Positions 8,429 through 20,015 of a stretch of DNA of 64,000 nt are shown here, piece by piece. The notes below the pieces were generated by a model, which saw only the letters and a program-made list of their open reading frames with translations, ran no database searches and was not told where the DNA came from. Where the stretch lies: contig NZ_JACFXV010000064.1 in assembly GCF_014050225.1 (NCBI RefSeq), positions 186,001-250,000 on the forward strand, written 5' to 3'. Origin of the DNA: Stappia albiluteola (lineage in GTDB: Bacteria > Pseudomonadota > Alphaproteobacteria > Rhizobiales > Stappiaceae). The position numbers and the translations under genes were made by a program. Positions within the stretch are counted from its first letter, which is position 1. Every line of letters starts with the position of its first letter.

Positions 8429-9280
8429 CTAAAGCGTTTGCCCGGACATGGCTTCCGCCCTGTGTTCGCGCAGCAGCCCCATGATTTCGGCCGCCGTCTC
8501 TTCAATGGAACGGCGCGTCACGTCGATCAAGGGCCAACCGCGCTCGGCACATAGTTTCCGCGTCAGCGCCACTTCCTGGGCGATCATCTTGCGGTCGATA
8601 TAGTCCTCGTTCAACCGGCCGACCGGATTGATGCCAAGCACCCGGTTCTGCCGGATATGCTGAATGCGTTCGGCTGACGCGACAAGCCCGACCACTAGCG
8701 GATGACGGATCTCGTCCAGCTGAAAGGGCAGGGCGATACCTGGAACCATCGGGATATTGGCCGCCTTGATACCCCGGTTCGCCAGATAGATGCATGTCGG
8801 CGTCTTCGACGTGCGGCTGACGCCGATCAGCACGACATCCGCCTCGTTGAGATCGCCCGGTATCTGGCCATCGTCATGCAGCATGGTGAAGTTCAGCGCT
8901 TCGATACGACTGAAATAATCGGCGTCGAGCGCGTGTTGTCCGCCGATCCGGCCCGTCAGCGTCACGTTCAGATAAGACTGGAACACCTTGAAGACCGGAT
9001 CGAGGATGTTCACGCAGGGAACGGTCAGTTCCCGGCACGCCCGCTCCAGGCGATGGGCGATTTCCGGATCGACCAGCGTGTAGAGCACGATCCCTGGCGC
9101 CCCCTCGATTTCGGCGATCGCCCGGTCCAGCTGCTTGACCGAACGCACCAGCGGATAGACATGCTCGATAGCCTGGACATTCTCATATTGCGCGGTTGCC
9201 GCACGCGAGACGGTCATCAGGGTTTCGCCGGTCGAATCCGAAACCATGTGTAAGTGAAAGAAGTTACGCACTTTTCCCAA
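8429..9280 (-). CDS. ppsR: PEP synthase/PPDK regulatory kinase-phosphorylase (PpsR, DUF299)
   Basis: This family carries out ADP-dependent phosphorylation and phosphate-dependent dephosphorylation of PEP synthase or pyruvate phosphate dikinase. The product carries HLHMVSDSTGETL at the N terminus and the P-loop IGVSRTSKTPTCIYLA. I chose a TTG start at 9280 (283 residues) because GAGGA lies seven bases upstream; a GTG at 9271 is also possible, and an open frame reaches an ATG at 9367 without family support. This gene is the one called RP001 in Rickettsia. RP001 and hemE flank the chromosomal origin in several alphaproteobacteria, and here hemE lies divergently 436 bases away. Confidence 0.9.
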   Translation of the reverse strand: MGKVRNFFHLHMVSDSTGETLMTVSRAATAQYENVQAIEHVYPLVRSVKQLDRAIAEIEGAPGIVLYTLVDPEIAHRLERACRELTVPCVNILDPVFKVFQSYLNVTLTGRIGGQHALDADYFSRIEALNFTMLHDDGQIPGDLNEADVVLIGVSRTSKTPTCIYLANRGIKAANIPMVPGIALPFQLDEIRHPLVVGLVASAERIQHIRQNRVLGINPVGRLNEDYIDRKMIAQEVALTRKLCAERGWPLIDVTRRSIEETAAEIMGLLREHRAEAMSGQTL

Positions 9281-9488
9281 ATTGTTGTCCTCAGGCCCTG
9301 TGGACGTGCGTGGGCACGACTGGATAAAGCGGGCCATTCGCACCGCGTCCGGGATATTCATGCCCATAGGCCCAAAATGATCAACAGGGCGGAGTTTGCG
9401 GCGAGACTCGGGCGAAACGAATCCGGTCTGTGTGGAGAATGGCCCTTGTCATTCGATATCCCCAGACTGTCACCGGTGGACTTAAAAG

Positions 9489-9503
9489 TTAATGAAAGGT
9501 TAA
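9489..9503. promoter_or_regulatory. CtrA-type binding site in the putative origin
   Basis: The sequence is TTAA-TGAAAGG-TTAA, an exact match to the TTAA-N7-TTAA consensus of the cell-cycle regulator CtrA. A further TTAA lies just upstream at 9482-9485. In Caulobacter CtrA bound to such sites in the origin represses initiation. The match and position are seen; function here is inferred. Confidence 0.6.
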
Positions 9504-9591
9504 CGAATTGGGAAGCGACTGATTCAAAATGGGATTCCATGACCGTCCCAAATAGCGCCTGCGACGTCGCTGCTCAGCCATGCGCTCTTTC

Positions 9592-9601
9592 TCACATGTG
9601 A
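9592..9601. repeat. 10 bp palindrome TCACATGTGA
   Basis: A perfect 10 bp palindrome, flanked by the near-symmetric TTTC and AAAG, lies 115 bases before hemE. It could be an operator for a dimeric regulator; no regulator is identified. Confidence 0.35.
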
Positions 9602-9655
9602 AAGATCATGTAGACGGGGAAGGACAACCGATAATCCCGGCAATCCGCCCTCAAT

Positions 9656-9695
9656 AAAAAACAAAAATCCCTATAAAAGGATTCTTGTCTTTTTT
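9656..9695 (+). promoter_or_regulatory. AT-rich hairpin in the hemE leader
   Basis: AAAAAACAAAAATCC (9656-9670) and GGATTCTTGTCTTTTTT (9679-9695) form an imperfect inverted repeat around a CTATAAAA loop, and the right arm ends in six T. The hemE ribosome binding site GGGAG starts five bases later and is itself followed by a complementary CTCTCC just before the ATG. The structure could be a terminator-like attenuator for hemE, part of the unwinding region of the origin, or both. Function is inferred. Confidence 0.4.
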
Positions 9696-9716
9696 AATTG
9701 GGAGAACAGGCTCTCC

Positions 9717-10751
9717 ATGTCTGCCACCCAGACCCGCTCGATCACCCGCGTCCTGAATGGCGAAAGACTGTGGCCGCCTCCGATCTGGATGATGCGGCAG
9801 GCAGGGCGCTATCTCCCCGAATACCGCGCAACACGCGCGCTGAAGCCCGATTTCCTGCAGTTTTGCTACGAAACGGAACTTGCGGTCGAAGTCACGCTTC
9901 AGCCGATCCGCCGCTACGGCTTCGATGCGGCAATCCTCTTCTCAGATATCTTCGTCGTACCGGACGCGCTCGGATATCCCGTTCGCTTCGAGGAGGGACG
10001 AGGTCCGGTGCTCGAGCCCCTGACACACGATCTCGTTGCAAAGCTCGATCAGGCAAGGACGAAGGAGCATCTGGCGCCCGTCATCGAGACGCTTCGCCGT
10101 CTGCGCCAGGAGCTTCCGCAGGAAACATCCCTCCTGGGCTTCTGCGGAGCCCCGTGGACGGTCGCCTGTTACTCGGTGGCCGGCCACACCACCCCGGATC
10201 AGGTTGCCGCGCGGGTGGGCGCCTATCGCGATCCTGAATTGATGCAGGCATTCATCGATGCGCTGGTGACGGCGTCCATCGATTATCTTTGCCGCCAGCT
10301 CGATGCCGGCGCCGAGGCGGTGCAGATCTTCGACACCTGGGCCGGCGTTCTGGACGAGGAAGGCTTCCGCCGCTGGTCGATCGAGCCGACCGCGCGGATC
10401 GTTGCCGGGGTGAAGGCGCGGGTGCCGGATGCGAAGGTGATCGGCTTCCCGAAGAATTCCGCCGCCCGCCTGAAGGACTATATCGCCGGAACCGGCGTCG
10501 ATGCCGTCGGTCTCGACTGGACTGTGCCTGTCGGGCTTGCCCGCGAGATCCAGAAAATCGTGCCGGTGCAGGGCAATCTGGATCCGATGCGCCTTGTTGC
10601 GGGCGGTGCGGCACTCGACGAAGGCGTCGACCAGGTGCTCGACGCGCTCGGCGACGGACCGCTGATCTTCAATCTCGGCCACGGGGTGACGCCCGAGGTC
10701 GATCCGGAAAACGTGAAGCGGATGATCGACCGCGTACGCGCCAGGGCATGA
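9717..10751 (+). CDS. hemE: Uroporphyrinogen decarboxylase HemE
   Basis: HemE removes four carboxyl groups from uroporphyrinogen III to give coproporphyrinogen III in heme synthesis. The 344-residue product has the two family signatures [17 protein letters not shown] near residue 22 and [16 protein letters not shown] near residue 140. GGGAGAACAGGCTCTCC precedes the ATG, a good ribosome binding site that may be partly closed by CTCTCC. It starts a heme block with hemJ ten bases after its stop. It marks the right side of the putative chromosomal origin, and it reads in the direction of replication. Confidence 0.96.
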
Positions 10752-12813: not shown

Positions 12814-12828
12814 GTTTCACGTGAATCA
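12813..12828. other. parS: parS-like site 1
   Basis: TGTTTCACGTGAATCA differs at one base from the consensus parS 16-mer TGTTTCACGTGAAACA, the binding site of chromosomal ParB. It lies between the rho terminator and the 3' end of the yyaL-type gene, about 7.2 kb from parB. Confidence 0.8.
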
Positions 12829-12835
12829 ACTCCGC

Positions 12836-14848
12836 TCAGCTTTCGCCGATTGCGGAAGGATCGGTTATCGGCAGCGAGCAGGCGCCCTCCCGGCAGAGAT
12901 AGAGGGTCGGACGGCCATCGATCGCCGTCTTGCCATGGGCGGGATGGCTTGCGGGCAATGCGTTATTCGTTTGTGTCACGTACCGGACGATGGCGGGGTC
13001 CGCCAGCTGCGCCAGGGCTTGCAGCAAGGGAGAGGGATCGGTTCCGCCGGGCGCGATGACGACGGCGAGCTGACCGGACAGTCGGGTGTCGAAGGCGCCG
13101 AGCAGGCTCGCGGTCGCGAAGATGTTCTGTGGGATCGTCTCCGCGAAGGCGTTCAGGACATCATCCGCTTTCTGGCGGTAGCTGTCATTCCCGGTCATAT
13201 GCCAGAGCTTCGACAGCGCGCCCACGAGAACGCCGTGGTAGTTGGGCACGGACTCGTCGGCGGCGCTGCACAGCCGCACGATGACATCCTCGGCCTCTTC
13301 CGAGGTCAGGAAATAGCCGCCGGCGGGGTTGGCGTAGTCCGCTTCAAGAACCGAGAGCAGTCGTGCGGCATCCTTGAGGAAGCCCTCACGCTGTTCGTCG
13401 TCGCGGCTCGTTTCCGCCAGTGCCGCTGCCGCATGCATCATGCAGGCGTAGTCGGAGGCAAAGCCCGGGCGGACATATCGACCGTCCCGACAGGAATGGG
13501 CGAGCCGGCCACGCTCGTCGGCCATCGTCGTCATGATGAAGCGATAGGCTTCAAGTGCAGCACGGCGCCACGATTCACGTGAAACAGCCTCCGCCGCTGA
13601 AGCAAGTGCTGCTATCGCCAGGCCATTCCAGTCGGCCAGTACCTTGTCGTCGCGCTGCGGCGGAACGCGTGCTGAGCGGGCATCGTAGAGAGCCGCGCGG
13701 GCCTGCTTCGTCTCGTCGATGATGGAGACCGCCGCGTCCTGGCGCTGAAGCAGATTGGGGATGTTGCGCCCCTCGAAATTGCCGGCAGGGGTTATGTCGT
13801 ACAGTTGATTGAACCTGTTGCCGGCGTCCTCGCCCAGGACGGCAACGATCTGCTGCGGTGTCCAGATGTAGAAGAGACCCTCTTCGCCCTCCGAATCGGC
13901 ATCGAAACTGCTGGTGAAAGCGCTGCCCTCGGCCCGCATTTCCCTTAGCAGCCAGTCGGCGGTTTCTTCGATTCGGATCAGGAACAACGGGTTTTTCGTT
14001 TTCCCGTAAGCCAGGGTCAGCTGCGAAAGGTACTGTGCATTGTCGTAGAGCATCTTTTCGAAATGCGGGACGAGCCATCGATCGTCGACCGAATAGCGGC
14101 AAAGCCCGCCGCCGATATGATCGTAGATGCCGCCGAGGCTCATACCGGTCAGGGCTTTCAGGGCGGCGTCGGCAAATGAATCGGAGCCGGTCCGCAGGCC
14201 GGTCCGCCAAATCAGCTCCATGACCGAGGCCTGCGGAAACTTTGGCGCTCCGCGCATGCCGCCGTTCACGGGATCGGTCAGGCTCAGCAGTTTCTCGCCG
14301 GCGAGCCGGACCAGGTCGGCATTCGCCTCTCCGGCGCGGGCCTGAGGCTGGCGCAGGGCGGCCATCAGGCTGGTCCGGTTGACGTCGATTCGGTCACGAT
14401 CCGAACGATAGGCCTTTGACACGGCCTCCATCACGTCGATGAAGCTTGGCCGGCCCCATCGCGCCTGCTTCGGGAAATAGGTGCCGCCCCAGAAGGGCTC
14501 GCCGTCGGGGGTGAGGAACATCGTCAGCGGCCAGCCTCCCTGTTCTCCCAGGGCATGCAGGGCGGTCATGTAGATCTGGTCGATATCGGGCCTTTCCTCC
14601 CGGTCGACCTTGATGTTGACGAAGAGGCGGTTCATCACGCCCGCCACGTCTTCGTCCTCGAAACTCTCATGGGCCATGACGTGGCACCAGTGACAGGCGG
14701 CGTATCCGACCGAAAGCAGGATCGGCTTGTCGCTGGCCTTCGCTTCGGCCAGCGCTTCCGGGCCCCAGGGCCGCCAGTCGACGGGATTGTCCTTGTGCTG
14801 GAGGAGATAGGGGCTTGTGCTTTCGGAAAGACGATTGTCGTTCACCAT
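12836..14848 (-). CDS. YyaL-type thioredoxin-fold protein (DUF255)
   Basis: The N-terminal domain of this 670-residue protein is a thioredoxin-like fold with Cys-His-Trp-Cys at about 52-55 ([15 protein letters not shown]). The rest resembles the alpha/alpha toroid of N-acylglucosamine 2-epimerase and glycosidase-like proteins, including [23 protein letters not shown]. Family members occur from bacteria to humans (spermatogenesis-associated protein 20), and their reaction is not known to me. I chose the ATG at 14848 because the conserved start [23 protein letters not shown] begins there, with AGGA before it. It reads against the neighbours rho and mnmE and contains a parS-like site at 13571. 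Confidence 0.85.
13571..13586. other. parS: parS-like site 2, within coding sequence
   Basis: CGATTCACGTGAAACA differs at two bases from the consensus TGTTTCACGTGAAACA and keeps the CACGTG core. It lies inside the yyaL-type gene, where the minus strand reads Val-Ser-Arg-Glu-Ser. Confidence 0.6.
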
Positions 14849-15042
14849 GTGTCCTGTCGTTCGATGATTGATCCGCGACAGCGGGGGAGATAAGGCATAA
14901 GCCCCTGCAAGCAAGTTTCGTCAGCTTGCCGACGATCAATTCAGGCTGAAGCGGCCGGTGGACAAGCTGTGCGGAAATCCGCAGTCATACTGTTTGAAAG
15001 CCTTGGATTGCGTTGAATAATACTGGGGATAGCAGCGGGATC

Positions 15043-16374
15043 ATGAATTCGGACGATACGATATATGCCTTGTCCAGCGGCAAACTTCCCGCAGGCATCG
15101 CGGTCATCCGCATATCGGGCGTGCGCGCATCGGACGTGCTGAAATGCATGGCCGGGCACCTGCCTGTGGAAAGGCATGCAAGTTTCAGCCGGCTGGCAGA
15201 CCCTAAGACCGGTGAGCCTCTCGACCATGCGCTCGTGCTTTGGCTGCCGGGTCCGGGCAGTTTTACGGGAGAGGATATCGCCGAACTCCATTGTCATGGT
15301 GGTCGAGCGGTCGTGGCGGCGGTGCTTGACTGCCTTGGCGCGATGCCCGGACTGAGACCGGCGGAGCCCGGCGAATTCACCAGGCGTGCGTATCGGAACG
15401 GCAGGCTGGATCTGGTTGAGGTGGAGGGCCTTGCGGATCTGATTGGCGCGGAAACCGAGGCACAGCGCCGTCAGGCGCTCCGCCAGGCCGATGGCGCCTT
15501 GAGCGAGCTTTATGGACGCTGGCGCAAGGATATCATCTGGGCACGGGCGATGATCGAGGCGGAACTCGACTTTGCGGACGAAGAGGATGTTCCGGGATCG
15601 ATTTCCGATCAGGTCTGGGCGAAGGTTGCCGGGCTTGCCGGCGAGATCGAGCGGCATCTCGAGCGATCCGTGGCCGCGGAACGGCTGCGGGACGGTGTCC
15701 AGGTCGTGTTGATGGGGCGGCCGAATGCAGGCAAATCCAGCTTGTTGAATGCGCTGTCGCGCCGCGACGTCGCGATCGTCACCGAGGAGGCGGGAACGAC
15801 ACGCGACGTGATCGAGGTGCATCTGGATCTCGGTGGCTATCCGGTCACCCTGGTCGATACTGCCGGCATCCGGGAAGATGCCGGCCGCGTGGAGGCGGAA
15901 GGTATCCGCAGGGCCAGGCAGAGGGTCGAGGCCGCTGATCTTGTGCTGTGGCTGCGTGCGGCTGACGATCCCAAAGGGCGCGAGCAGATTGTTGCGGACA
16001 CGGGCGCACCGGTGTGGAAGCTGCGTTCGAAGTCGGATCTGGGGGCGGATGCAGACCAACTCGATGCGGATGAGATCTCCATATCGATGCAGGACCCCCG
16101 AACCATTGACGGGTTGTTGATTGCCCTGGCTGGATTCGTCGCCGAAATGGTCCCGACGGGAGAAGATGTTCTCGCGACCCGCGATCGCCATCGACAGGGG
16201 CTGAAAGCGTGCCGGCATGCCTTGCTCCAGGCATTGGAGGGGGAGGGAGCGCCGTTGGAGATGCGGGCGGAAGAACTGCGCCGCGCCGCCGATCATATGG
16301 GGCGGATCACCGGGTTGATCGGGGTTGAAGATCTGTTGGACGTGATTTTCGGCGAATTTTGTATCGGTAAATAA
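15043..16374 (+). CDS. mnmE: tRNA modification GTPase MnmE (TrmE)
   Basis: MnmE works with MnmG to modify the wobble uridine (cmnm5s2U34) of certain tRNAs. The 443-residue product has the N-terminal formyl-THF binding domain (DTIYALSSGKLPAGIAVIRISG), a helical domain, and an inserted GTPase with G1 GRPNAGKSS at about 230, G3 DTAGIRE, and G4 SKSD in place of the standard NKxD. It ends in CIGK, the conserved C terminus with the Cys. I chose the ATG at 15043 after GCGGGATC; a TTG at 15013 is in frame but has no family support. mnmG follows after a parS-like site. Confidence 0.94.
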   Translation: MNSDDTIYALSSGKLPAGIAVIRISGVRASDVLKCMAGHLPVERHASFSRLADPKTGEPLDHALVLWLPGPGSFTGEDIAELHCHGGRAVVAAVLDCLGAMPGLRPAEPGEFTRRAYRNGRLDLVEVEGLADLIGAETEAQRRQALRQADGALSELYGRWRKDIIWARAMIEAELDFADEEDVPGSISDQVWAKVAGLAGEIERHLERSVAAERLRDGVQVVLMGRPNAGKSSLLNALSRRDVAIVTEEAGTTRDVIEVHLDLGGYPVTLVDTAGIREDAGRVEAEGIRRARQRVEAADLVLWLRAADDPKGREQIVADTGAPVWKLRSKSDLGADADQLDADEISISMQDPRTIDGLLIALAGFVAEMVPTGEDVLATRDRHRQGLKACRHALLQALEGEGAPLEMRAEELRRAADHMGRITGLIGVEDLLDVIFGEFCIGK

Positions 16375-16380
16375 ACGACC

Positions 16381-16396
16381 TGTTTCACGTGAAACG
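16381..16396. other. parS: parS-like site 3
   Basis: TGTTTCACGTGAAACG differs only at the last base from the consensus TGTTTCACGTGAAACA. It lies in the gap between mnmE and mnmG, six bases after the mnmE stop. Confidence 0.88.
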
Positions 16397-16586
16397 CCGG
16401 ATTCCATAGATCGGTTCTGACTCGAAACAAATTCCGGATTGGAAATTGTCGCGACTCGGGATTCCTTGAAGGCCATTCAAGGAAAAGCGGCCCGCACATT
16501 TGTTGCCGTTTCGGGCGCTTCGAACTATAGGGATAGCAACGAATTCGCCCGATTTTGGCGGGCTCGAACGATGGACAGTCCGTTTG

Positions 16587-18479
16587 ATGAAGATGCATTT
16601 CGATGTGGTGGTGATTGGCGGTGGGCATGCCGGCTGCGAGGCGGCGGCGGCCGCGGCACGCCTTGGCGCGCGCACGGCTCTTGTCACCCATCGCTCCGAT
16701 ACGATCGGTGCCATGTCTTGCAATCCGGCTATCGGCGGTCTCGGCAAAGGCCATCTGGTCCGCGAGATCGATGCCCTTGACGGGTTGATGGGACGGGTGG
16801 CGGATCAGGCCGGCATCCAATTCCGCCTGCTCAATCGGCGCAAGGGCCCGGCCGTGCGTGGGCCCCGCGCACAAATAGACCGCAAGCTCTATCGCCATGC
16901 GATGCAGGCGGCGATCCGCGAGACGGCGAACCTCACTGTTGTCGAGGGCGAAGCGGCGGGCCTGCGCATGCAAGACAATCGAGTCGCAGGCGTAACGCTC
17001 GCCGATGGCACGGACATTTCCTGCGGCGCGGTCGCGCTGACCACCGGTACGTTCCTGCGCGGTGTCATCCACCTCGGCGACAGGCAGATTCCGGCCGGGC
17101 GCGCGGATGAGCCGCCGGCGGTTGCGCTGGCGGAGTCGTTGCTTTCCGCAGGTTTCCGGCTCGGCCGCTTGAAGACCGGCACGCCGGCACGCCTTGATGG
17201 CCGCACCATCAACTGGGATATTCTGGAAGAGCAGCCGGGCGATTCGGAGCCGGAATTGTTCTCGACGCTGAGCGAGCGGGTGGCCGTACCGCAGGTCGCC
17301 TGCCACATCACGCGTACCACCGACGAAACCCATCGCATCATTCGCGACAATCTTCACCGTTCGGCCATGTATTCCGGCGAAATCGTCGGACGTGGCCCGC
17401 GTTATTGCCCGTCCATCGAGGACAAGGTCGTGCGCTTCGGCGACCGCGAGGGCCATCAGATCTTTCTTGAGCCCGAGGGCCTCGACGATCCCACCGTCTA
17501 TCCGAACGGTATTTCGACCTCCTTGCCGGAAGAGGTGCAGGAAGCATTCCTGCGTTCGATCCCGGGCCTGGAGAATGTCGCCGTCTTCCGTCCCGGCTAT
17601 GCGATCGAATACGACCATATCGACCCGCGCGACCTGCGGCCAACGCTTGAGACGAAGCAAGTCTCGGGCCTGTTCCTGGCTGGACAGATCAACGGCACGA
17701 CGGGCTACGAGGAGGCGGGTGCCCAGGGCCTGCTTGCCGGCCTGAACGCGGCCCGCCACGCCGGTGGCGAGGAGGGCGTGACCTTCAGCCGATCCGAGGC
17801 CTATATCGGCGTCATGGTGGACGATCTGGTGACCCGGGGCGTCAGCGAACCCTATCGCATGTTCACCTCGCGCGCCGAATACCGCCTGTCGCTGCGCGCC
17901 GACAATGCCGACCAGCGCCTGACGCCAATCGGGATTGCGCTCGGCTGCGTCGGTCCGCAGCGCGCGGACGCCTTCGAGGCGAAGCAGGCGGAGCTTGCCG
18001 CGGCCACTGATCGCCTCAAGGGCCTGATCGTCACACCGGCCAAAGCAAGGGAAGCCGCGCTGAACCTCAGCCAGGACGGCGTGAAGCGCAGTGCTTTCGA
18101 CATCCTGTCCTATCCGGATATCGACCTGGAGAAACTGAAGGCGATCTGGCCGCAGGAGATTGGCTCGCTCGACCCGAAGATCGCCGAGCAGGTGGCGATC
18201 GATGCCCTTTATGTGGTTTATCTTCGCCGTCAGGCCGCCGATATCGAGGCGTTGAAGCGTGACGAGGAACTACAGCTTCCGGCCTCTGTCGATTTCGATG
18301 CGATCAGCGGCCTGTCGAATGAGTTGAGGGAGAAGCTCGCTCGAATCCGTCCCGAAACGGTCGGGCAGGCGTCACGCATCGAGGGCATGACGCCGGCGGC
18401 GCTGACCCTGCTGCTTGCGCATGCGCGCCGGAAACAAGGCGAGGGCGACCGTCCGCGCCTCGCCGCGCAGGAAGGCTGA
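16587..18479 (+). CDS. mnmG: tRNA uridine-5-carboxymethylaminomethyl modification enzyme MnmG (GidA)
   Basis: MnmG is the FAD and NADH partner of MnmE in wobble-uridine modification. The 630-residue product begins [20 protein letters not shown] with the FAD-binding glycine motif, and carries the two GidA signatures [15 protein letters not shown] and [18 protein letters not shown]. The frame stays open upstream to 16500, but the conserved start lies at 16587 or 16593. It sits between mnmE and rsmG, the classic order near bacterial chromosomal origins. rsmG starts seven bases after its stop, so they are co-transcribed. Confidence 0.95.
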
Positions 18480-18485
18480 TCACCG

Positions 18486-19181
18486 TTGAAAGGAAAGCAG
18501 CCCCCTTCCAGAAAGCCGCTTGCGAATACGACGGATGGTCCCGAGGCGCTTCATGCGGTGTTTCAGGTTTCACGTGAAACAATCGACCGGCTATCGATTT
18601 ACGTCGATTTGTTGAAGCGCTGGCAACCGGCGCAGAACCTTGTCGCGCCGTCGACACTGTCCGAGATCTGGCGCCGGCATGTCGCAGACAGCGCGCAGGT
18701 GCATTTCGCCCTGCCGGACGCCCGCATCTGGCTCGATTTCGGCAGCGGCGCCGGATTCCCCGGCCTTGTCACCGCGATCCTGTTAATGGAAAAAGCGGAT
18801 AGCTCCGGCCGCGTGCACCTCGTTGAAAGCAATCAGCGCAAGGTGTCCTTCCTGCGCACCGTGATCCGCGAGACGGGTTGTCCTGCGGAGGTCCATGCCG
18901 GACGTATCGAGGATGTCGTCGCCCGCTGGCAGGGGCCGGTGGATGCCCTGTCGGCCCGGGCGCTGGCGCCGCTTGCGGATCTCTGCGGCTATTCGGTCAG
19001 GTTCGTTCAGGCCGGTGCTGTGGCGATTTTCCACAAAGGAAAAAATTTCCGCGAGGAGATTGAACTCGCATCTGCCGATTGGCAGCTCAATCTGGTAGAA
19101 AGAAAGAGTCTGATCGACCCTGACAGCCGCCTGCTGGTGATCACCGGTATCGAGGCGCGTCGTCCGACAGGGAAAGGCTAG
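18486..19181 (+). CDS. rsmG: 16S rRNA m7G527 methyltransferase RsmG (GidB)
   Basis: RsmG methylates N7 of G527 in 16S rRNA with S-adenosylmethionine. The product shows the motifs NLVAPS, HVADSAQ, WLDFGSGAGFPGLVTAI (SAM loop near 80-95) and RALAPLADL. The start is uncertain: I give TTG at 18486 (231 residues) after GGAAGG; a GTG at 18558, just before QVSRETIDRL, would give a product nearer the family's common length. A parS-like site lies inside the reading frame and encodes Val-Ser-Arg-Glu-Thr. It is coupled to mnmG upstream and parA downstream. Confidence 0.92.
   Translation: MKGKQPPSRKPLANTTDGPEALHAVFQVSRETIDRLSIYVDLLKRWQPAQNLVAPSTLSEIWRRHVADSAQVHFALPDARIWLDFGSGAGFPGLVTAILLMEKADSSGRVHLVESNQRKVSFLRTVIRETGCPAEVHAGRIEDVVARWQGPVDALSARALAPLADLCGYSVRFVQAGAVAIFHKGKNFREEIELASADWQLNLVERKSLIDPDSRLLVITGIEARRPTGKG
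18566..18581. other. parS: parS-like site 4, within rsmG
   Basis: GGTTTCACGTGAAACA differs at one base from the consensus TGTTTCACGTGAAACA. It lies near the 5' end of rsmG, 622 bases before parA, and encodes Val-Ser-Arg-Glu-Thr in the RsmG frame. Confidence 0.85.
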
Positions 19182-19187
19182 AACTGC

Positions 19188-20015
19188 ATGAGCATTCTTC
19201 CTCGTTCTCCCCGTGTTCTGGCCCTGGCCAATCAGAAGGGCGGCGTCGGCAAGACGACCACGGCCATCAATCTGGGAACCGCGCTGGCGGCGATCGGCGA
19301 GCGCGTGCTGGTCATCGACCTCGATCCGCAGGGCAACGCTTCCACGGGTCTCGGCATCGACCGACGCAACCGCGATCTCTCCACCTATGATGTGCTGAGC
19401 GGCGACTGCTCGCTGGAAGAGGCGATCCAGGAAACGGCGGTGCCGCGACTTGCCGTGGCGCCGTCCACCATGGACCTGCTGGGCCTGGAACTGGAGATCG
19501 CCTCCAGGCAGGATCGCGCCTTCCGGTTGCGCAATGCGGTTGCCGCGCTGGCGCGCGCCGCCGAGCGCAGCAAGCGGGCCGACTACACCTATGTGCTGGT
19601 CGACTGCCCGCCGTCGTTGAACCTGTTGACGATCAATGCCCTGTCGGCGGCCCATTCCATTCTCGTGCCGCTGCAATGCGAGTTCTTCGCGCTGGAAGGC
19701 CTCAGCCAGCTGCTGAGCACAGTGGAGCAGGTCAAGGCGTCGCTGAACTCGGAACTCAGCATCCACGGTATTGTGCTGACAATGTTTGACAGCCGAAACA
19801 ATCTCTCCAACCAGGTGGTGGAGGATGTGCGCGAAACGATGGGTGACGCGGTCTACGAGACGGTGATCCCGCGCAATGTGCGTGTGTCGGAGGCGCCGTC
19901 CTATGGCAAGCCGGCGCTGCTTTACGATCTGAAATGCTCCGGCAGCCAGGCCTACCTGCGCCTGGCGTCGGAGATCATCCAGCGGGAACGGAACCTGCGC
20001 ACGGTCGCGGCCTGA
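19188..20015 (+). CDS. parA: Chromosome partitioning ATPase ParA (Soj)
   Basis: ParA is the DNA-binding Walker-type ATPase that moves ParB-parS complexes apart. The 275-residue product has the deviant Walker A motif KGGVGKTT at 17-24 with both Lys residues, Walker A' VIDLDPQGNAS, and Walker B VLVDCPPSLNLLT. Its size and the absence of an N-terminal helix-turn-helix mark it as the short chromosomal type. It starts six bases after rsmG and is followed by parB after a 37-base gap. Together with the four parS-like sites it forms the chromosome segregation locus, 9.5 kb from the putative origin. Confidence 0.95.
   Translation: MSILPRSPRVLALANQKGGVGKTTTAINLGTALAAIGERVLVIDLDPQGNASTGLGIDRRNRDLSTYDVLSGDCSLEEAIQETAVPRLAVAPSTMDLLGLELEIASRQDRAFRLRNAVAALARAAERSKRADYTYVLVDCPPSLNLLTINALSAAHSILVPLQCEFFALEGLSQLLSTVEQVKASLNSELSIHGIVLTMFDSRNNLSNQVVEDVRETMGDAVYETVIPRNVRVSEAPSYGKPALLYDLKCSGSQAYLRLASEIIQRERNLRTVAA

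Follow-up and report, generated by a model that had tools for sequence, protein, structure and literature searches.

The chromosomal origin of Caulobacter and Rickettsia lies in the gap between ppsR (COG1806) and hemE, and CtrA sites are predicted in the origins of Wolbachia and Ehrlichia, as described in PMC1914354. In Hyphomonas neptunium, a CtrA ChIP signal adjoins the chromosomal origin (PMC7200025). PMC4433202 and PMC11500502 describe the origin of Sinorhizobium meliloti as free of both CtrA motif and CtrA binding, and the coupling of replication to division by CtrA in the Rhizobiaceae, whose origins carry no CtrA site, as unclear. CtrA does not bind the origin of Brucella abortus, according to PMC2877005. 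A widespread marking of origins by CtrA in the Hyphomicrobiales or the Stappiaceae is apparently unreported in the open-access literature, to which our search was confined.

We looked at a 64-kb stretch of DNA, called here the window, which corresponds to positions 186001-250000 of contig C61 in a draft genome of 70 contigs and 4.36 Mb (G000). The original prediction had placed a replication origin between ppsR and hemE, in a gap of 436 bases whose genes read away from each other. We observed that the gap has this size (436 bp) and that the flanking genes are divergent. A skew turn, a parS cluster, an AT-rich stretch and a cluster of DnaA-like boxes all support the location, and we consider with high confidence that this gap is the chromosomal origin. 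The location thus stood, but the description was incomplete, since it did not mention a CtrA site, a conserved core next to the AT-rich stretch or the decay that DnaA boxes have undergone in the lineage. The boundaries are as follows:

8429-9280, minus strand: ppsR of the COG1806/DUF299 type, bounding the gap on the left and starting with a TTG at 9280
9281-9716, no strand: ppsR-hemE spacer, very probably oriC, from the skew turn, parS cluster, AT stretch, DnaA-like cluster and conserved length
9717-10751, plus strand: hemE, right boundary gene, TIGR01464 at 383.2 bits (cut-off 302.95)

In the NCBIfam profile search, ppsR passed PRK05339 (333.5 bits, cut-off 225) but scored only 154 of the 350 bits required by the PpsR equivalog model. 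Its minus-strand open reading frame extends upstream to an ATG at 9367, but a start there was ruled out by family comparison, the frame closing before 9367 in 65 of the 84 members. Moreover, a start codon (TTG, GTG or ATG) was found exactly seven codons ahead of the FHLH motif in all 26 genomes listed, and the codon at that place in the window is the TTG at 9278-9280. The start is therefore this TTG by comparison, and the left edge of the gap given earlier (9281) is right. The gap has a G+C content of 50.7% as against 63.9% for the window. By motif search, the distance from the FHLH motif of ppsR to the hemE motif was 499-522 nt in 84 of the 87 family genomes, and ppsR was found by tblastn in two of the other three. 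The nearest named HemE found, 74% identical, is that of a Roseibium isolate, and the spacer at the Roseibium locus resembles that of one genus of the family, g2, which makes the Stappiaceae the probable family of the window. When a plasmid collection was searched at near-identity, a single record, from S. meliloti, was obtained, covering 21% of the query.

Cumulative GC skew, which the original prediction had named as a check, turned about 3 kb from the gap on the window's contig and also close to hemE in two relatives (G001 and G099). On the contig (276,691 bp), the GC-skew minimum is at 198,847 (window 12,847, about 3.1-3.3 kb right of the gap) and the keto-skew minimum at 198,760, both at window 12.8 kb, and 16 of 20 10-kb bins are negative left of 200 kb while all eight to its right are positive. 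Within window 12814-12847, the GC-skew minimum coincides with the first parS-like site and not with the gap. In the sister species G001, a 2.43-Mb contig carries hemE at 834 kb; 14 of 16 skew samples were negative below 760 kb, six were mixed at 780-840 kb and 15 of 18 were positive above 840 kb. There, dnaA is found at 491 kb, within the negative arm, indicating that the dnaA locus is not the origin. In G099, a single-contig relative of 4.6 Mb, hemE is found at 3.841 Mb and the turn falls between 3.77 and 4.00 Mb, with 19 of 19 samples in order. Other genomes were less regular: in G006, eight of ten samples fitted and two were out of line; in G050, from the divergent genus g7, all nine samples right of hemE were positive and those on the left were mixed (5/11 negative); in G043, where hemE is near a contig end, the single sample beyond it was still negative.

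The Caulobacter-type parS GTTTCACGTGAAAC, allowing one mismatch, occurred at four places in the whole genome, all within window 12,814-18,580, while the reversed pattern gave no match. These sites are 3-9 kb right of the gap and adjoin a parA-like gene and parB:

12814-12827, no strand: parS-like site, one mismatch
13572-13585, no strand: parS-like site, one mismatch
16382-16395, no strand: parS GTTTCACGTGAAAC, exact
18567-18580, no strand: parS GTTTCACGTGAAAC, exact
19188-20015, plus strand: parA-like gene (ParA/MinD-type ATPase), named by its position before parB; all NCBIfam cut-offs missed, best TIGR03453 at 105 bits
20044-20955, plus strand: parB, TIGR00180 at 193.6 bits (cut-off 58.45)

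The Bacillus-type parS TGTTCCACGTGGAACA was rejected, as it was found at only two places with up to two mismatches, fewer than its reversed control. For KOPS-like octamers, a strand bias was not found.

Inside the gap, two earlier remarks were confirmed, namely that the DnaA boxes are poor and that the stretch at 9654-9698 is AT-rich (80% A+T). One DnaA site has a single mismatch (9431-9439) and four have two. These five sites compare with 0.56 expected per 436 nt, making the gap the densest span of that length in the window at up to two mismatches. At up to one mismatch, the gap holds only one of the four sites of the whole window, a number showing no excess over chance (shuffle mean 3.59). 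As for the AT-rich stretch, its A+T content is reached by only 3 of 63,956 45-nt windows, which start at 9653-9655 and are the stretch itself. The elements are:

9378-9386, plus strand: DnaA-like box B2, TGATCAACA, two mismatches, inside the conserved block ATCAACAG
9431-9439, minus strand: DnaA-like box B3, TTCTCCACA, one mismatch
9456-9464, plus strand: DnaA-like site ATATCCCCA, two mismatches, containing TCCCCA
9467-9475, plus strand: place of box B4, which reads TTATCCACT in genera g3 and g4 but has decayed here to CTGTCACCG (five mismatches)
9619-9627, minus strand: place of box B5, which reads TTGTCCACA in g3 and g4 but has decayed here to TTGTCCTTC (four mismatches)
9631-9646, plus strand: conserved core ATAATCCCGGCAATCC, next to the AT-rich stretch and better conserved than any other block of the spacer
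9653-9699, no strand: AT-rich stretch, presumed to serve as DNA unwinding element; no other 45-mer of the 64 kb is as rich in A+T; GATTC at 9680-9684

We take the TCCCCA of the 9456-9464 site to be the Caulobacter W-box core. Compared to the Caulobacter origin Cori, the G-box TGATCCACA has no exact copy here, its nearest sequence being TGATCAACA, and the exact IHF consensus WATCARNNNNTTR was not found in the window's spacer; this consensus is present in 5 of 84 family spacers. Since B4 and B5 are near-consensus in g3 and g4 yet decayed here, the poor boxes are a trait of the lineage. The mean number of boxes with up to one mismatch was 0.33 in the window's genus (n=3), 0.36 in g5 (n=14), 0.0 in g7 (n=16), 1.14 in g2 (n=43), 3.0 in g4 (n=5) and 2.7 in Rhizobiaceae and kin (n=21). 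An altered DnaA specificity was ruled out as the cause, the recognition segment RRFGNRDHTTVLHAVRK being identical in the 20 main DnaA copies compared. A second full-length DnaA paralog, diverged in domain IV, was seen in all four g2 genomes examined (L255, L256, L257 and L258).

In the family alignment the conserved core extends over about 9631-9648, and it can be aligned with Rhizobium-type spacers. Two further blocks, ATGCCCGC (9360-9367) and CGAAACGG (9413-9420), are strongly conserved in the family spacers; to our knowledge they match no known protein site, and they are possibly unrecognised origin motifs. Five GANTC (CcrM) motifs were counted in the region examined, one of them inside the AT-rich stretch, and family means of 3.0-4.8 per spacer compare with about 1.4-1.6 expected by composition, an excess of roughly two- to threefold.

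The chief interest of the locus is a CtrA site, found by motif search and assessed by its conservation and by a spacing control:

9482-9485, no strand: extra TTAA half-site, three bases ahead of the full site
9489-9504, plus strand: full CtrA site TTAATGAAAGGTTAAC, TTAA-TGAAAGG-TTAAC

This is the sole TTAA-N7-TTAAC of the 64-kb window, and 100 shuffles gave none. Genome-wide, the motif was found at 22 places (29 rows) as against 15 rows for the reversed control, about twice as many, so that a motif match counts for little by itself and it is conservation that makes the argument. The presence and conservation of the site are plain in the alignment. All 25 genomes of g1, g3, g4, g5 and g6, the window's included, carry it without mismatch at the orthologous place, where shuffling would give 0.15, and it is present in all three genomes of the window's genus. 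In g2 (n=43), it is exact in five genomes, has one mismatch in 37 and two in one, whereas in g7 the place shows 3-4 mismatches and the site is absent in 16 of 16. Within the alignment, the eight TTAA columns hold 1.18-1.86 bits and the seven N7 columns 0.19-1.02 bits. The identical 16-mer occurs at one other place in the genome (L283:2658-2673, that is G000:C63:187157-187172), upstream of open reading frames that we read as the flagellar genes flgB, flgC and fliE; flagellar operons are a classic kind of CtrA target. The ctrA gene was found in all 18 genomes searched, g7 included, and the CtrA of the window's genome is 94% identical to a Caulobacter CtrA query.

The genus g7 (about 50% G+C; L188-L224, L027, L029 and L035) has spacers of 504-507 nt, keeps ctrA, and has in its spacers neither the CtrA site nor a DnaA box with up to one mismatch. 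As the origin position, its length and ctrA are all kept there without the site, the latter is not indispensable in the family. In the DnaA tree each genus groups together, with the deepest order of the genera left open, and the simplest reading is that the family inherited the site from its ancestor and that g7 lost it. A simple trade of the CtrA site against DnaA boxes was not upheld: g4 has both (5/5 sites, 3.0 boxes) and g7 neither (0/16, 0.0).

We also looked at the rest of the order. Among 94 non-family genomes with a HemE match, 67 were surveyed, made up of 27 loci with the best HemE scores and 40 picked by hand (if possible one from each family not yet covered, and some additional ones). 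A ppsR-hemE spacer was obtained from 54 of them; the 13 genomes without a ppsR match were excluded, and five of these have the exact CtrA motif within 450 nt before hemE. TTAA-N7-TTAA was present in 18 of the 54 spacers, which come from 39 other families, and 14 of the 39 families were represented. The twelve other TTAA spacings (2 to 14) gave 0-5 occurrences each in the same spacers, AATT-N7-AATT gave two, and shuffles 0.85 on average and at most three. The position of the motif varied between 17 and 427 nt from hemE. Among the spacers that could be named, an exact site was seen for example in Pleomorphomonas and Methylobacterium, and in one MAG each of Nitratireductor, Beijerinckiaceae and Hyphomonadaceae. 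In Rhizobiaceae and kin, the exact site was found in 1 of 21, the Nitratireductor MAG L063, in a set that takes in L061, L063, L064 and L071, outside the list of 17 chosen after the spacers had been inspected.

The location, the skew, the parS sites, the AT stretch, the box cluster and the conservation of the CtrA site can be read from the sequence itself, and they suggest how the locus might work. The spacer would be the DnaA-dependent main-chromosome origin of a Stappiaceae-like alphaproteobacterium (Hyphomicrobiales). DnaA would gather on the weak boxes lined up along the left two thirds of the spacer, then extend across the conserved core (9631-9646) and melt the AT-rich stretch (9653-9699) beside hemE. 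Forks would depart bidirectionally, and the nearby parS cluster on the right, bound by ParB, would separate the new origins. The full site at 9489-9504, halfway along the DnaA row, is probably bound by phosphorylated CtrA, which would restrain or tune initiation much as it does in Caulobacter. By analogy with Caulobacter, we infer both this binding and its effect on initiation, with a possible exclusion of DnaA, while the site could reflect a promoter.

Since both skew minima fall at window 12.8 kb, the origin might be thought to be displaced by a few kb into the parS/rho/mnmE region (window 12.8-18.6 kb), with the spacer merely near it. This seems highly improbable to us: skew minima are imprecise at the scale of a few kb, the box cluster, the AT-rich stretch, the conserved length and the conserved core are all within the ppsR-hemE gap, and it is in this gap that the origins of Caulobacter and Rickettsia have been described (PMC1914354). 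Nor do we read the CtrA motif as a fortuitous or neutral pair of TTAA in an AT-rich gap, despite its AT-rich half-sites, genome-wide matches at only about twice the control and the lack of the site in g7. A very unlikely coincidence would be needed, for all 25 genomes have the exact motif at one place despite a variable N7, and the N7 spacing occurs 18 times in 54 other-family spacers as against 0-5 for other spacings and 0.85 in shuffles.

The origin could also be here with the CtrA site serving the promoter of hemE, of ppsR or of a small RNA and having no direct role in replication, and this we regard as possible, if on the doubtful side. CtrA sites are mostly promoter elements, the present one precedes hemE by 213 nt, and its 16-mer recurs unchanged ahead of flagellar genes. 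In Caulobacter, the transcription of hemE through the origin is CtrA-controlled and the CtrA-dependent ncRNA CcnA is encoded in the origin (PMC8959179). Contrarily, the site is far from both start codons and within the row of DnaA boxes, and a small RNA finds no backing in Rfam, the spacer matching no family at E<=1. Moreover, the sites of other families shift between 17 and 427 nt from hemE, which fits a role of the whole region over that of a single promoter. A promoter role and a replication role are in any case mutually compatible.

Turning back to CtrA acting on the origin itself, we propose tentatively, with doubt slightly prevailing, that direct CtrA marking of the origin is an old and widespread trait of the Hyphomicrobiales, in which the site positions turn over, instead of being peculiar to Caulobacter or Rickettsia. 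The branch of S. meliloti, Agrobacterium and Brucella would have lost the site and kept strong DnaA boxes, while the window's family would have one site at one place in six genera, with g7 as a natural deletion. The family offers a ready comparison, with six genera carrying the site, one without it, and ctrA in all genomes searched.

Compared to known systems, the origin itself is ordinary in kind, ppsR-hemE origins being already known from Caulobacter and Rickettsia. Cori of Caulobacter crescentus has, like the window, the same boundary genes, a similar size, an AT-rich stretch, weak DnaA boxes and the TTAA-N7-TTAA CtrA consensus inside (PMC1914354 and PMC4468827), but it has five CtrA sites where the window has one full site and a neighbouring half-site. 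Rickettsia, Wolbachia and Ehrlichia also have hemE beside the origin and CtrA and DnaA motifs in the gap, according to PMC1914354, although they belong to different orders, COG1253 replaces ppsR in Wolbachia, and their motifs are mostly predictions. H. neptunium, for which binding alone was demonstrated, is a stalked budding bacterium outside the Hyphomicrobiales. The oriC of S. meliloti adjoins hemE in the same locus and order, and the spacers of Rhizobium and kin align with the window's conserved core beside the AT-rich stretch and with its box positions, yet the window's spacer has the CtrA motif that PMC4433202 and PMC11500502 describe as absent from the S. meliloti origin. Rhizobiaceae and kin have 2.7 boxes (up to one mismatch) and 1/21 CtrA sites, whereas the window's genus has 0.33 boxes and 3/3 sites. 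If most neighbouring families do carry the site, direct CtrA control would be the rule in the order, from which the models depart.
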